64,000 nucleotides of DNA from the NCBI GenBank assembly GCA_951813535.1, contig OX638345.1, forward strand, positions 757,029-821,028, given 5' to 3'. The notes beneath the pieces are model-generated. The model saw only the letters and a program-made list of their open reading frames with translations. It did no database searches and was not told the DNA's origin. Positions within the stretch are counted from its first letter, which is position 1, and each line of letters opens with the position of its first letter. Positions 16,691-23,493 of this stretch are shown here, piece after piece. This stretch comes from an uncultured Dehalococcoidia bacterium (lineage in GTDB: Bacteria; Chloroflexota; Dehalococcoidia; Lucifugimonadales; UBA3495). A program made the translations under genes and the position numbers.

Positions 16691-18919
16691 GTGACGTTTC
16701 CCAAACACCGGAGGTGTTGGGTTGCGCTGGCGACGTTGGCCGTACTGGCGATTTCGGCGTTTATCGTAGGATGCGGCCCCGCCGACCGAAGCATGGCGAC
16801 AATGGATCCCGAACAGGTTGCGGCGACTCCCGAAGGTGTATCGCCGCAATCCGGAGATGCCCCGGAGCAATCCAACCTGCCGCCGCTGCCACCGAAGGAA
16901 CCACCACAGTATCCAAACCTGGATTCCAACCTGAACCGGCTGGCGGAAGTAGCCTCCTCGACGCTAACGCCAGCCGGCACGGACGCGGCGCGATCAAATC
17001 AGGATGACGAGCCCCTCCTGGTTACGTTCTACATCGAGGCGGGCCGTGTGGACGACGTGCGGGAGTACCTGGAGGAAAACGGGATATTCGTCCGCAATGT
17101 GGGGGAAGACTACATTGAGGCCCATGTGCCGCCGTCCCAGTTGGGTGCGGCATCCGAGCGGCCCGGGGTATTGCGTGTGGACACTGTGGTTCCAGTCTTG
17201 CCGCCTCAACCGACATCGGCTAACGCTCTCAATCCTGCCGTCATCAGTCGGGGCGTCGGCATTCACGGAGCCGATGCCTGGCACGGGGTTGGGTATCGCG
17301 GGGAAAACGTCAAGGTTGGCGTCATTGACTCCGGGTTTGAGGGTTTTGCCCGATTGCAGGGAACCCAATTGCCGCACAACGTGGTGGCTCAGTGCTACTT
17401 CACGACCGCGCGAGCGCCATCCTCTTCGCTTTCCGACTGCGAGGTGAATGGAAATCACGGCACGACGGTGGCGGAAACACTCTCAGATGTCGCGCCGAAC
17501 GTGACGCTCTACATCGCCAATCCCATAACAAAAGGCGATTTCCGCTCCGCTTCAGATTGGATGACTGGCCAGGGTGTGGCCGTAATCAACTTATCCGGCG
17601 GCTGGGCACCCCTGAACCCCGGCGACGGCACATCACCCTTCAGCAACGCGCCCCTGAGGACCGTTGACCGGGCGGTTGCTGGAGGAGCCGTGTTCATAGC
17701 CGCCGGCGGCAATGCGGGGCGCAGGGTGTGGTACGGGACCTTTGCGGACCCCGACGGTGATCGCTGGCACAACTTCAACGATCAAGTTGAGGCCAATCAC
17801 TTCACCGTTACGGAGAGCAAGAAAGTCTCCGCCTTTGTGCGTTGGGACGGCGATTGGGGAAGGGAGGGTTGTGACCTGGATTTGGCGCTTGTTCGAGTTG
17901 ACACGAGCACCCCAACCCTAATTGCCATCGCGGAAAACCTTCAGGATGGTGGTGCGAACCGGTATCCCGCCGAGTACGTGGCGGCAAACGTTCCGCCCGG
18001 TGTGTACAGCCTGTCGCTTTGGAACGCCCGCTGCGCCGCCATGCCGGCGTGGATTCAGCTCTTTTTGTGGGACACCGAGGGTGGTTCCGAAGAACTGCCG
18101 TACCACTCTCCAGGTCGCCACATGGCAGAACCGGCGGAGAGCCGAAACCCCGGCATGATGGCGGTGGGAGCGACCCACTGGTGGGACACCCAGCAAGTCG
18201 CCGAATACAGTTCCCGTGGGCCGACTATCGACGGCCGTCGAATCAAGCCGGACATCACCGGCATTACCTGCAACCCAACGGCAGCCAACCCACCAGTCCC
18301 TTTACCTGACGGAGGCACCCTCCATACGACTTGTGGCACATCTCACGCAGCTCCTCATATCGCTGGCCTTGCCGCGCTGGTGAAGCAGCGGTTCACGAAT
18401 TACCGCCCTAACTTCATCACCCATTACCTGAAGCAGAATGCCGCCGAGCGGGGACCGGCCGGAGCGGACAACACCTGGGGCTACGGACTGGCCGAGTTGC
18501 CTGATCCTTCGTCGGCGCCTGTGAGCATCGCGGCGGGGCCGGCCAGCAACATCACCGCCGTCAACGGACGTAATACCGGAGAGGCAGTAATTACTTGGGA
18601 CGCAGCTCCGGGCGCGACCCATTACCGTATTGGCTGCGTGAATATGGAGCGCGACTACCTCAGGGCCAAGGCAAGCAACACCGGCAACTGGCGAGAGGCG
18701 TTCCTGTACTTTGACGTAGAGGCCCAGAATCTCGACCCTATTCGCCCCACCTACACCTTTCCCGGTCTCCAGGAGGGCGTCTACCACGCCTGCACGGTAT
18801 TGAGCAACAACTCCCGGTACGGCCAGCCGACGTGGCCCGCCCCCCCACATTATTGGCAGTATCTAACCATCACCAATCGCGGCGGGGCGTGCCCGATCTG
18901 CGCCGGGGCATCGCCATAG
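16691..18919 (+). CDS. Subtilase (S8) serine protease, lipoprotein
   Basis: A 742-residue secreted subtilisin-like protease. The GTG start is chosen because GGAGG lies 9 nt upstream and the product opens with a signal peptide and lipobox Cys28 (FIVGC). A Pro-rich linker and an inhibitor-like prodomain (about 105-170) precede the catalytic domain: Asp213 in VGVIDSGFEG, His256 in NGNHGTTVAE, oxyanion Asn341 in AAGGNAG and Ser551 in GTSHAAPHIAG. About 110 residues resembling a PPC-type beta-sandwich (about 365-462) are inserted between Asn341 and the Ser. A C-terminal Fn3-like domain follows from about 610. It is probably cell-surface bound and digests external protein. Confidence 0.9.
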   Translation: MTFPKHRRCWVALATLAVLAISAFIVGCGPADRSMATMDPEQVAATPEGVSPQSGDAPEQSNLPPLPPKEPPQYPNLDSNLNRLAEVASSTLTPAGTDAARSNQDDEPLLVTFYIEAGRVDDVREYLEENGIFVRNVGEDYIEAHVPPSQLGAASERPGVLRVDTVVPVLPPQPTSANALNPAVISRGVGIHGADAWHGVGYRGENVKVGVIDSGFEGFARLQGTQLPHNVVAQCYFTTARAPSSSLSDCEVNGNHGTTVAETLSDVAPNVTLYIANPITKGDFRSASDWMTGQGVAVINLSGGWAPLNPGDGTSPFSNAPLRTVDRAVAGGAVFIAAGGNAGRRVWYGTFADPDGDRWHNFNDQVEANHFTVTESKKVSAFVRWDGDWGREGCDLDLALVRVDTSTPTLIAIAENLQDGGANRYPAEYVAANVPPGVYSLSLWNARCAAMPAWIQLFLWDTEGGSEELPYHSPGRHMAEPAESRNPGMMAVGATHWWDTQQVAEYSSRGPTIDGRRIKPDITGITCNPTAANPPVPLPDGGTLHTTCGTSHAAPHIAGLAALVKQRFTNYRPNFITHYLKQNAAERGPAGADNTWGYGLAELPDPSSAPVSIAAGPASNITAVNGRNTGEAVITWDAAPGATHYRIGCVNMERDYLRAKASNTGNWREAFLYFDVEAQNLDPIRPTYTFPGLQEGVYHACTVLSNNSRYGQPTWPAPPHYWQYLTITNRGGACPICAGASP

Positions 18920-19667
18920 TATCGTGCCGTTGTGCAGATGGCCGCGACGGTTTCGTTACTTCGTTCTACATCCGCTGGTTGTCCATCTGGTGACGGAACA
19001 CATACCCATACCAGCAAGCGCCGTCCCTTGCAAGAAGCGCGGTCAGGAGCGCGCAATTTTCAAACGCATACACTACCCATGCCACCACCCTCTTGCCATA
19101 ATACGAACTTATGCTCTATAATGCCTCCACAGGCGATGATTCGGTTCCATCGACCAGGTTCCGAGCGTTCACGGCCAATCAGCATCAAGTCGCTGCCGGC
19201 TTTGGAGACTGCCCCCGATCGCATTAATCGGAGTAGTCCCCCCGGCCACCGGGCCCGCCACAGCCCGCCATGCTTCAGGCATGGACAATGAGAGCAAAAA
19301 ACCCCAGCGCACCACCTCCGGCCGTAGGGCTGATAACCGCTCGGAACCTGGTCAACACTCTCCAAAACATCGCCTGCACACCCTGAACTTCAGGAGGCAA
19401 ACCCTCAGCAACACCAACCCGGATACGTTCCGGCGGCAGCGGCCATCGCCTGTCCTCTGCCGCCACCACATTTGCAACGCATCTACTACCTCAGTCCATC
19501 CCAGTCGCGTCCTTGTCGGCCTCGACCCTCCCACTGAGGCGCGCCCTTCCGCGCCCGCCTGCCCCCGTCAACGAACCGGGGCAATGCGCGATAGCGCCTC
19601 CGAGCGCACTGGTGTACAATCGGCCAAATTGCCGCCGTTTGTCCTGCTGCCGCTAGGGGGATTTGAG
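18920..19667. other. Gene-free stretch, 748 bp, with promoter and hairpins
   Basis: No reading frame here resembles a protein. On the plus strand it holds a near-consensus promoter (19093-19122), then small hairpins: CCGAT/ATCGG at 19215-19231 and CCATGC/GCATGG at 19268-19284. A second possible -10 (TACAAT, 19615-19620) and the SD (AGGGGG, 19655-19660) of the next gene lie at the right end. It could be a long 5' leader of the operon starting at 19668 or a separate small RNA; no known RNA family was recognised. Confidence 0.5.
19093..19122 (+). promoter_or_regulatory. Sigma-70-type promoter, TTGCCA-N18-TATAAT
   Basis: TTGCCA at 19093-19098 and a perfect TATAAT at 19117-19122 are separated by 18 bp. 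Transcription would begin near 19129, about 540 bp before the first gene on this strand. Confidence 0.65.
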
Positions 19668-20969
19668 ATGCGTATCCTGCTGATTGCTACCAACCGTCAC
19701 AAACAGGTCATGAGCCGGATGCGGGCGCAGCCCATACCCATCGGCCTGGCCTACGTGGCCGGCCACCTTGACCGTTCCCGGCACGAGGTGAAGCTGATCG
19801 ACCTCATGTTCGCGGAGGATAACTACCTCGATGAAGTCGAGCGCACCGTGCTGGACTTCAAGCCGGAGATGGTGGGCATATCGATCCGCAACCTCAGCAA
19901 CCACAGCTACGTCGACCCGCAGTGGCAGTTGCCCATCACCAGGAGCGTCATCGAGCGCATCCGCACGATTTCCGACGCCACCATCGTCTGCGGCGGCCCC
20001 GCTTTCAGCATCATGCCGCAGCAGGTCTTCGACTTCGTGCAGCCCGACCTCGGCATTGCCGGCGACGCCGGCGAGACCTTCTCCGAGCTGGCCAACCGGG
20101 TCGAGATCGGCGAGCCCGACTACCGGGGCATGACCGGTGTCCTTTACCGGGAGAACGGCGAGATCGTGTACAACGGGATGCGCTGTTCGTCCGATTTCGG
20201 CAGCCGCCCCAGCCTCGACGATCTGGACATGCCCAGGTACGCCAAGGCCGGGTTCGGCGTCAGCGTGCTCACCAAGCTGGGCGGGTTCTACTATCCCACC
20301 TCCGCCGACGACATGCGCACCCCCGAGGGCGCCTGGCGGGTGATCCGACCCATTGACGAGGTGGTCGAGGAGGTCGCCGAGGTCACCACGCGCTACGGCC
20401 TGAAGAAGATCTTCTTCGTCGACAACTGCTTCAACGTGCCTTTGGAACACGCCAAGGAACTCTGCAACGCGCTGATGGAGTCCGAGGTCAAGGTCCGCTG
20501 GAACACCTGCCTCGCTCCCTACGCCTGCGACGCCGAGCTCATCGGCATGATGAAGCAGGCTGGCTGCGGCCTGGTCATGATGGGCGGCACCCGCGGCGGC
20601 GACCCTCACGAGGGCGACAACGACACTTCGCGCTACGCCTCCCTCAAGGAAACTACCGAGCTGTGCGAGGCCGGCGACCTCCACTACACCATCAGCCAGC
20701 AGTTCGGCGAGCCCGGCGAGACCCGCGAATCGGTCGAGAACAAGCTGGAGTTCCTGCGCGGCCTCAAGCCTTCGCTGGCCAACCTGCGCGTCGGCGTCAG
20801 CGTGATGCCGGGAACGGACGTGGCCACCCGCTGCCTCGAGGAAGGGATCATCAAGGACGAGACCGAGCTCATCGCGCCCACGTTCTACATGGCCGAGGAG
20901 GTCCGCCCCTGGCTGGTCGACTATCTCCGCGAACTCGTCGACGCCAACCCGCGTTGGGGCATGATGTAG
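19668..20969 (+). CDS. B12-binding/radical-SAM-like protein lacking the cluster cysteines
   Basis: A 433-residue protein. The ATG at 19668 has an AGGGGG SD; the upstream extension of the frame is not protein-like. Residues 1-150 form a cobalamin-binding Rossmann-like domain (MRILLIATN, PIGLAYVAGHLDRSRHEVKLIDLMF, VGISIRN, VCGGPAFSIMP). Residues 190-430 follow a radical-SAM barrel (PEGAWRVIRPIDEVVEEV, KKIFFVDNCFNVP, GCGLVMMGG, GEPGETRESVENKLEFL). Where GCxxxCxxC should be, the sequence reads GGFYYPTSA: residues 206, 210 and 213 are Gly, Pro and Ala. It cannot hold the usual 4Fe-4S cluster. It leads a unit with DUF1800 and NHL genes. Confidence 0.75.
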   Translation: MRILLIATNRHKQVMSRMRAQPIPIGLAYVAGHLDRSRHEVKLIDLMFAEDNYLDEVERTVLDFKPEMVGISIRNLSNHSYVDPQWQLPITRSVIERIRTISDATIVCGGPAFSIMPQQVFDFVQPDLGIAGDAGETFSELANRVEIGEPDYRGMTGVLYRENGEIVYNGMRCSSDFGSRPSLDDLDMPRYAKAGFGVSVLTKLGGFYYPTSADDMRTPEGAWRVIRPIDEVVEEVAEVTTRYGLKKIFFVDNCFNVPLEHAKELCNALMESEVKVRWNTCLAPYACDAELIGMMKQAGCGLVMMGGTRGGDPHEGDNDTSRYASLKETTELCEAGDLHYTISQQFGEPGETRESVENKLEFLRGLKPSLANLRVGVSVMPGTDVATRCLEEGIIKDETELIAPTFYMAEEVRPWLVDYLRELVDANPRWGMM

Positions 20970-21019: not shown

Positions 21020-22471
21020 ATGACTTTGACCAGCAACCCGCAACTGGGCGCGGCCCGTATTGCTCTGGCGGATGATGTATCCATCCGCGCCGCGCATCTC
21101 CTCCGCCGCGCCGGTTTCACCCCCACCCGGGCTGAAATCGATCGCGCCGTGGGGCGCGGATACGAAGCCACCGTCGACGAACTGCTGCATCCCGAGGACC
21201 GACCCGACCTGGAAATCGAGGACCTCATCCGCCGCTACCACGTCGACCAGAACAGCCTCATGCTCCTGGAGAGCAGCCAGGGCTACTGGATGTATCGCAT
21301 CATCAACAGCCAGCGCCCGCTGGAGGAGAAGATAGCCCTGTTCTGGCACGGCCTCTTCGCCACCGCCTACGGCAAGCTCAACCACGCCAAGGCGGTGGTC
21401 AACCAGACCCACACCTTCCGCCGCCACGGCCTCGGCAAGTTCGCCGATATCCTGGTCGAGCTGTCTCGTGACCCCGCCATGATCTTCTGGCTGGACAACA
21501 AGGACAACCACCGTGACGCGCCCAACGAGAACTACGGCCGCGAACTGCTTGAGCTGTTCTCCATGGGCATCGGCAACTACACCGAGGCCGACGTCAAGGC
21601 CGCCGCCCGCGCCTTCACCGGCTGGACCATCGACAACACCGAGTACATGAGCATCCGCGCCAGCCGCGACTCCTTCTGGCCCTACGGCCGCATCGACTGG
21701 CAGTTCCGCTACCGCGAGGATGACCACGACGACACCGAGAAGACCTTCCTCGGCCACACCGGCCCGCTGAGCGGTCAGGACGTCATCGACATCATCGTGA
21801 AGCAGCCGGCCACCGCTCACTACATCGCCGGCAAGCTCTACAACTTCTTCGTGTCCGACCGGCCCGACGAGGAAGCCATCGGCATATTGGCCGACGAGTT
21901 CATCCGCACCGACGGCGACATCCGCGCCGTCATGCGCTGCATGTTCATGTCGGACTTCTTCGCCGATGAAGCCGTGCGGCTAGGCCGCGTCAAAAGCCCC
22001 GCCGAACTGGTTGGCGGCACCGCCCGGTTGGCGGGCAGCCACCAGTCTCCGGAGTGGACCATCTCCAACCTGGCCATGGACGTCAACTTCATGGGCCAGG
22101 AGATCCTGAACCCGCCCACCGTGGAGGGCTGGCACACCGGCATGGAGTGGATCGATACCGGCAACCTCGTCGAGCGTATCAACGCGGCCGGCGCCGAGAT
22201 GCGCGACACCGCACGCCCCGGCGTCCGCGCGATCATCGAACGCGTGAAGACGCGCGGCGACCGGCTGGAGCCACGTCAGCTGGCCGAGGCCTGCCTGGAC
22301 GCCATGGGCATGTTCGAGGTGTCCGACGGCACCATGGACAGCCTGGTGGCCCTGGCCGCCCCATGGGGTGAGGTTCGTTTCGACCGCGCCGACACCGTCG
22401 CCTGCGCCGAGGAGCGCGTCGTGGAGATGCTGCAGCTCATCGTGGCGTCCCGGGAGTACCAGTTGGCATGA
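21020..22471 (+). CDS. DUF1800 family protein
   Basis: A 483-residue DUF1800 protein. The ATG at 21020 has an AGAGGA SD and follows the radical-SAM-like gene by 50 bp. Family hallmarks seen are AAHLLRRAGFTPTRAEID, EKIALFWHGLFATAYGKL, NENYGRELLELFSMGIGNYTEADVKAAARAFTGWTID, KTFLGHTGPLSGQDVIDIIVKQPATAHYIAGKLYNFF and NPPTVEGWHTGMEWI. DUF1800 proteins are usually exported and paired with DUF1501 proteins; here no signal peptide is evident and DUF1501 is missing. The biochemical role of the family is not established. Its stop overlaps the next start by 4 nt. Confidence 0.9.
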   Translation: MTLTSNPQLGAARIALADDVSIRAAHLLRRAGFTPTRAEIDRAVGRGYEATVDELLHPEDRPDLEIEDLIRRYHVDQNSLMLLESSQGYWMYRIINSQRPLEEKIALFWHGLFATAYGKLNHAKAVVNQTHTFRRHGLGKFADILVELSRDPAMIFWLDNKDNHRDAPNENYGRELLELFSMGIGNYTEADVKAAARAFTGWTIDNTEYMSIRASRDSFWPYGRIDWQFRYREDDHDDTEKTFLGHTGPLSGQDVIDIIVKQPATAHYIAGKLYNFFVSDRPDEEAIGILADEFIRTDGDIRAVMRCMFMSDFFADEAVRLGRVKSPAELVGGTARLAGSHQSPEWTISNLAMDVNFMGQEILNPPTVEGWHTGMEWIDTGNLVERINAAGAEMRDTARPGVRAIIERVKTRGDRLEPRQLAEACLDAMGMFEVSDGTMDSLVALAAPWGEVRFDRADTVACAEERVVEMLQLIVASREYQLA

Positions 22472-23493
22472 CCACCACCGCGACCGCAACATTCACCTAC
22501 AGCCACACCGTGGGCTTCCTCGCCTACCGTGGCCGGGGATTCATCCACCCCGTCGACCTGACGCTGGGCGACGGCGGCGTTATGCACGTGCTGAACCGTG
22601 GCGGCGCCGAGTCCGTCGGTCGCCTGGATCTCAAGCGGGTTTGCGTCTGCACGGCCGACGAGGGCTATATCGGCGAATGGGGAGCCGGGGGCACCGAGGC
22701 CGGCCAGTTCTGGTGGCCCAGCGCCATTGCTCAGGGCGGTGATGGTCAGATCTACGTGACCGACGAGTCCCTGCAGCGGGTCAACGTGTTTGGCCCCGAC
22801 GGCGAGTTCATCCGCCACTGGGGCGAAACCGGCGACGGCCCCGGCCAGATCAACCGCCCCGCCGATATCATCTTCGCGCCCGACGGCTCGCTGCTGGTCA
22901 GCGACGGCATGAACCACCGCATCCAGCGCTTCACTGTGGACGGCGAGTACCTGGGAGGCTGGGGCAGCTACGGCGCCCAGGCCGGCCAGTTCAACACCCC
23001 CTGGCGTCTGGCCTGCGATACTGACGGCAACGTCTTCGTCGCCGACTGGCGCAATGACCGCGTGCAGGCGTTCACTCCCGAAGGCCGCTTCGTCGGCCAG
23101 TGGGGCGTGTCCGGAGACGGTAAGGGCCAGTTGAACCGGCCCTCAGCAGTAGCCGTTGACGACGAAGGCTACATCTACGTGGCCGACTGGGGCAACGAGC
23201 GGGTGCAGATATTCGCACCGGACGGCGAGGTGGCCGCCATCCTGCTGGGCGACGCGACTACGTCATCCTGGGCTGAGGACTACCTCGCTGCCAATCCTGA
23301 CGAACAGAGGGCCAGGCGCGAAGCGAATCTGGCGCCCACCGTCAGCCCGTGGCGCGATCATCACCGCGAGACTTCGGCCGGCGTGGAGGCCCGATTCTGG
23401 GGACCCACGGCGGTCAACCTGGACGACGAGGGGCGCATCTTTATCGTCGACTCCTGCCGACATCGCGTCCAGATCTACCGCAAGAACTCGTAG
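22468..23493 (+). CDS. NHL-repeat beta-propeller protein
   Basis: A 341-residue protein made of NHL repeats, starting at an ATG that overlaps the DUF1800 stop (ATGA). At least five blades are visible: GQIYVTDESLQRVNVF, GSLLVSDGMNHRIQRF, GNVFVADWRNDRVQAF, GYIYVADWGNERVQIF and GRIFIVDSCRHRVQIY, spaced by G-x-GQFN/W-P linkers. The fold is a six-bladed propeller used as a binding or lyase scaffold. No signal peptide is seen. A strong terminator lies 43 bp after the stop, so this is the last gene of the three-gene unit beginning at 19668. Confidence 0.9.
   Translation: MTTTATATFTYSHTVGFLAYRGRGFIHPVDLTLGDGGVMHVLNRGGAESVGRLDLKRVCVCTADEGYIGEWGAGGTEAGQFWWPSAIAQGGDGQIYVTDESLQRVNVFGPDGEFIRHWGETGDGPGQINRPADIIFAPDGSLLVSDGMNHRIQRFTVDGEYLGGWGSYGAQAGQFNTPWRLACDTDGNVFVADWRNDRVQAFTPEGRFVGQWGVSGDGKGQLNRPSAVAVDDEGYIYVADWGNERVQIFAPDGEVAAILLGDATTSSWAEDYLAANPDEQRARREANLAPTVSPWRDHHRETSAGVEARFWGPTAVNLDDEGRIFIVDSCRHRVQIYRKNS

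Follow-up and report, generated by a model that had tools for sequence, protein, structure and literature searches.

The locus at 19668..20969 (+ strand) of the window, by which we mean the whole stretch of 64,000 nucleotides analysed here, encodes a protein that resembles B12-binding radical-SAM enzymes and yet lacks the cysteines of their iron-sulphur cluster, and it raises the question of whether this loss is real and, if so, what such a protein may do. The CxxxCxxC motif holds the 4Fe-4S cluster that cleaves SAM. An uninterrupted frame runs from the ATG at 19668 to a stop ending at 20969 and specifies 433 amino acids, in a genome recovered as a single contig of 4.38 Mb. A longer, mechanically called ORF with its start at 19281 lacks support, since homologue alignments begin at the methionine of 19668. 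Residues 21-141 (19728..20090, +) match the B12-binding Rossmann domain of Pfam PF02310 over the curated cut-off (E 3.4e-16); 17 of the 17 alignment members scanned match this domain. By homology and alignment, a radical-SAM-like barrel region follows at about residues 198-400 (20259..20867, +), and then a C-terminal tail, PTFY...RW (20868..20966, +), which the alignment also places in cysteine-bearing relatives. The match to PF04055 begins C-terminal of the absent CxxxCxxC, covers only residues 225-363 and, at 18 bits against a cut-off of 29.5, misses the curated threshold. Over the full length, the best family match was NCBIfam TIGR04072 (residues 3-413, E 3.7e-57, 193.9 bits); BzaD TIGR04385 was also matched (residues 2-411, E 9.8e-36, 123.9 bits), and the best PDB match by sequence was TsrM (6wte). 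The architecture is that of class 1 cobalamin-dependent radical-SAM proteins (N-terminal B12 Rossmann domain plus a radical-SAM-type barrel), and in the alignment the cluster ligands of this class are absent. Considering the Pfam B12-binding, full-length NCBIfam and TsrM matches together, we take the protein to be a true homologue of the B12-radical-SAM proteins and chance resemblance to be excluded.

The cluster loop, TKLGGFYYPTSA, reads GGFYYPTSA where GCxxxCxxC is expected, and the former CxxxCxxC site spans 20283..20306 (+), with Gly206 at 20283-20285, Pro210 at 20295-20297 and Ala213 at 20304-20306. We aligned 57 cluster-free proteins with 34 relatives and TsrM. The three columns correspond to TsrM C227, C231 and C234 and hold Cys in 100% of the 34 relatives, so that the replacement of all three cluster cysteines, as claimed in the preliminary description, is borne out. 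The 57 homologues are distinct sequences from 45 genomes (four of them single-contig) of the GTDB family to which the window's genome belongs, with 38-99% identity to the window protein. Neither CxxxCxxC nor a close variant of it, the functional mark of radical-SAM proteins, occurs in any of them (0/57); the loss is therefore conserved, and the intact close homologues that would point to a local error were sought in this family and not found. The other radical-SAM matches in the window's genome carry an intact motif in all cases (13/13). Since 57 distinct homologues agree, with four single-contig genomes among their sources, a sequencing, frame or assembly error is ruled out.

The protein was matched in 47 of the 50 genomes of the family, and a copy is present in all 18 of those of high quality (completeness of 90% or more, contamination of 5% or less); of the 47 matched genomes, one (G030) has nothing closer than a distant relative that bears the cysteines, and another (G047) holds a copy that was left unread. 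Cluster-free paralogues number two or three in several genomes of the family. All 57 homologues have an open reading frame, and within-genus comparisons gave pN/pS values of 0.02-0.16 for the whole gene. In the loop, pN/pS was 0-0.07 in nine of ten comparisons and 0.29 in the remaining one (L013), close relatives showing synonymous differences with hardly any amino-acid change. Members of the genus share the loop with little or no change, and in the rest of the family it is variable in length and sequence and partly deleted. The low pN/pS, together with loop changes that are almost wholly synonymous, indicates that neither frameshift nor decay has taken place. Furthermore, 38 positions spread over both domains are newly fixed, that is, conserved at 95% or more in the cluster-free clade and below this value in the relatives; those in the barrel include K263, D288, Y340, K359 and R374, and the whole set argues against decay. 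An artefact of sequencing or assembly, or else a pseudogene on its way out, has a negligible probability in our view: we found nothing in its favour, and it is opposed by the agreement of the homologues with all frames open, by pN/pS far below 1 and by the presence of the gene in every high-quality genome. Judged from these data, the finding widens from one odd protein to a core gene of a bacterial family, under strong purifying selection.

The nearest relatives outside the family show only about 25-30% identity and come from other families of the class and from other Chloroflexota; all 34 of those aligned have kept the three cysteines. No other cluster-free relatives were seen among the matches read, from 294 genomes of the class, 400 of the phylum and 29 of one further class, and a scan of viral contigs for distant relatives found none. 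A maximum-likelihood tree puts the cluster-free proteins together on one side of a branch with a support of 100*; the loss of the cysteines, which is old, maps to a single origin. The branch lies in the neighbourhood of TIGR04072, BzaD and TsrM. The tree neighbours of the clade, L109 and L110, keep the cysteines and have Gly at the position of TsrM Glu273, as do most cluster-free members. This suggests that the loss was stepwise, with L109 and L110 as a possible intermediate stage; their join to the cluster-free clade has a support of 90 and is flagged for long branches.

On the B12 side, both groups have D45, R74, N75, G109, G110, F113, S114, P117, G129 and G132 in common. Arg74 (19887..19889, +), which the alignment equates with TsrM Arg69, is found in 96% of the cluster-free clade and in 100% of the cysteine-bearing relatives. 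The clade also retains the GPGET helix, K203, N256, P258, W278 and P284. The canonical SAM-binding motifs, by contrast, are eroded: the Asp after beta-4, present in 94% of the relatives, is variable in the clade, and R378, at 100% in the relatives, is mostly Ser. At the TsrM Glu273 position, where the fourth cluster ligand would lie, the window protein has Cys254 in place of Glu, and the members of the family have Gly (36/57) or Cys (16/57). In the genus of the window, Cys254 (20427..20429, +, at the end of beta-2) and Cys281 (20508-20510, at the end of beta-3) perhaps both lie near the barrel mouth. The latter is found in 32 of the 57 members, and neither residue is conserved throughout the family.

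These two cysteines bear on the proposal that a metal or Fe-S centre is held by other ligands near the top of the barrel, for instance by Cys254 and Cys281 in the genus of the window. Such a centre would draw on the alignment of C254 with a cluster ligand, TsrM Glu273, and on the place of C281 at the end of beta-3, probably near the barrel mouth. However, neither residue is general in the family, and a conserved third ligand is missing. Apart from C266 and C333, no cysteine is invariant; no conserved replacement trio exists in the alignment of the 57 members, and C266 and C300 also occur in the cysteine-bearing relatives; having been there before the loss, they are not substitute ligands. We consider a centre of this kind improbable, and likewise the suggestion in the preliminary description that the ligands might be placed elsewhere. 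As the protein has neither the cysteines nor any substitute set, a 4Fe-4S cluster is very unlikely, as far as sequence can tell, to occupy the canonical site, and reductive cleavage of SAM becomes very unlikely too. That the protein belongs among these homologues and has lost canonical radical-SAM chemistry is the part of the interpretation in which we have most confidence. The earlier reading of a family without radical chemistry, which may use cobalamin in another way or only bind it, is supported, the loss being old and family-wide, and it fits the changed residues on the cluster and SAM sides as well as the conserved B12 site.

We therefore had to weigh what a cluster-free protein of this build could do. 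It probably binds cobalamin: the conserved B12 residues and Arg74 suggest a cofactor bound base-off, which would be sandwiched by the Rossmann domain and the barrel, Arg74 lying beneath the cobalt. With no 4Fe-4S cluster at the canonical site, SAM would not be cleaved reductively, and the cluster-free scaffold could support corrinoid chemistry of a non-radical kind (polar, two-electron), most likely the transfer of a methyl group from methylcobalamin to a nucleophilic substrate in the barrel, as in TsrM, though without any cluster. Arg74 by itself would be no proof of polar chemistry, since it was inherited from cysteine-bearing ancestors, and the precedent has a limit in that TsrM, a non-radical methylase, still has its cluster. 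The explanation that we somewhat favour is that of an old cluster-free branch of the class 1 cobalamin-dependent radical-SAM proteins, of single origin, probably with non-radical corrinoid chemistry.

The main competitor is a pseudoenzyme that would bind cobalamin for sensing, storage or delivery, the former barrel serving as a scaffold or ligand pocket. Such a role is in line with a B12 site that is intact while every cluster ligand and several motifs on the SAM side have disappeared, with a loop as variable in length and sequence as expected if it has no catalytic role, and with a core gene that stands alone, outside any fixed operon. On the other hand, invariant positions were newly gained in both the barrel and the B12 domain, and the retained GPGET helix, K203, N256, P258, W278 and P284 would be mostly needless for pure binding, even if fold stability could account for some of them. 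We rank a non-radical enzyme as the most likely of the readings and non-catalytic B12 binding or sensing as the next, a possible though clearly less probable one; taken on its own, the question of whether the protein is catalytic or purely binds or senses stands evenly balanced. The model predicted from 14 input sequences was of poor quality (mean pLDDT 51), too low for side-chain placement, and few of the newly invariant positions could be assigned to an active site at this pLDDT. Its top structural matches were TsrM (Z 13.7, 280 residues), OxsB (Z 13.2), MgmA, CysS and TokK. The model's Rossmann domain matched the corrinoid protein 1y80 (117 residues, 2.7 A); whole-chain rmsd values of 12-14 A against the structural matches make the domain placement unreliable. 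Even so, the best matches of this low-confidence model lie wholly among B12-radical-SAM structures of class 1 or a related type.

The gene neighbourhood was also considered. The order TlpA / target / DUF1800 / NHL is common to the genus, and in the window the DUF1800 and NHL-repeat genes follow the target, at 21021-23493. In L055, from another genus, a phosphofructokinase-like gene stands between target and DUF1800 (TlpA / target / phosphofructokinase-like / DUF1800 / NHL), and L030 shows TlpA / target / phosphofructokinase-like. No conserved neighbourhood was found across the rest of the family, which gives no clue to the substrate, and an assignment of function based on an operon was dropped because gene order is not kept family-wide. 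A subtilase (S8) gene lies at 16691-18919, between an AI-2E transporter gene and the target. As no S8 match was found at the corresponding place in relatives L003-L015, it looks like a local insertion.

A possible link with oxygen came from the distribution of the haem-copper oxidase subunit I (COX1, PF00115), which scored over the cut-off in 48 of the 50 genomes of the cluster-free family (G000-G049) and in nine of the 33 genomes with cysteine-bearing relatives. Three COX1-bearing Chloroflexota (G415, G422 and G564) keep the cysteines. With these exceptions, and with a single evolutionary event to judge from, the idea that an aerobic lineage shed a cluster sensitive to oxygen, which these counts fit, is a hint only. 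We put forward as a tentative proposal, less probable than the explanation favoured above, that the whole family represents a cobalamin-dependent polar methyltransferase free of the cluster, a step beyond TsrM and possibly adapted to aerobic life.

If these interpretations hold, a near-universal and constrained clusterless family would separate the cobalamin chemistry of the scaffold from radical-SAM chemistry and offer a natural experiment on the role of the cluster, and the annotation 'B12-binding domain-containing radical SAM protein' would be chemically wrong for the cluster-free proteins. Compared with their relatives, these should also tolerate oxygen better and so lend themselves more readily to purification and study. 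In the literature searched, which left most subscription papers outside, we found no earlier description of a cluster-less B12-radical-SAM family.

Among the known systems, the cysteine-bearing relatives from other Dehalococcoidia families (L078-L106) and from other Chloroflexota (L108-L112) share with the cluster-free proteins the domains, the B12 motifs, C266, C300, W278, GPGET and the C-terminal PxFY...RW; they differ in that all of them have CxxxCxxC, and most keep Glu at the TsrM 273 position and the GxDS motif after beta-4. The proteins of TIGR04072 (lipid biosynthesis B12-binding/radical SAM, ladderane-associated) likewise differ from the 433-aa protein in the CxxxCxxC that it lacks, and its 193.9 bits stay below their cut-off of 360. 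The same holds for BzaD (TIGR04385, a radical-SAM protein of B12 lower-ligand biosynthesis), which it matches over the full length and yet without CxxxCxxC, at 123.9 bits, the cut-off being 450. TsrM, a tryptophan 2-C-methyltransferase (TIGR04428; PDB 6wte/6wtf), is its best PDB match by sequence and by structure, although the 76.7 bits of the 433-aa protein, below the cut-off of 500, place it outside that family as well. TsrM is a methylase of the B12-radical-SAM fold in which SAM is not split to give a radical (PMC8992657, PMC13331322), and it showed that proteins of this kind can act without radicals, though it bears a cluster. Its Arg69 lies beneath the cobalt, where it blocks lower ligation and aids non-radical methyl transfer (PMC8992657, PMC13331322), and its Glu273 is a protein ligand of the unique iron of the cluster (PMC8992657). 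When Lys was put in the place of this arginine, TsrM still methylated cobalamin and no longer its substrate (PMC8992657). Both proteins have the two-domain architecture, the arginine (Arg69 in TsrM, Arg74 here) within an RN motif and the B12-loop GG..FS.MP; whereas the cluster ligands C227, C231, C234 and Glu273 are retained in TsrM, the 433-aa protein has other residues at all four positions.
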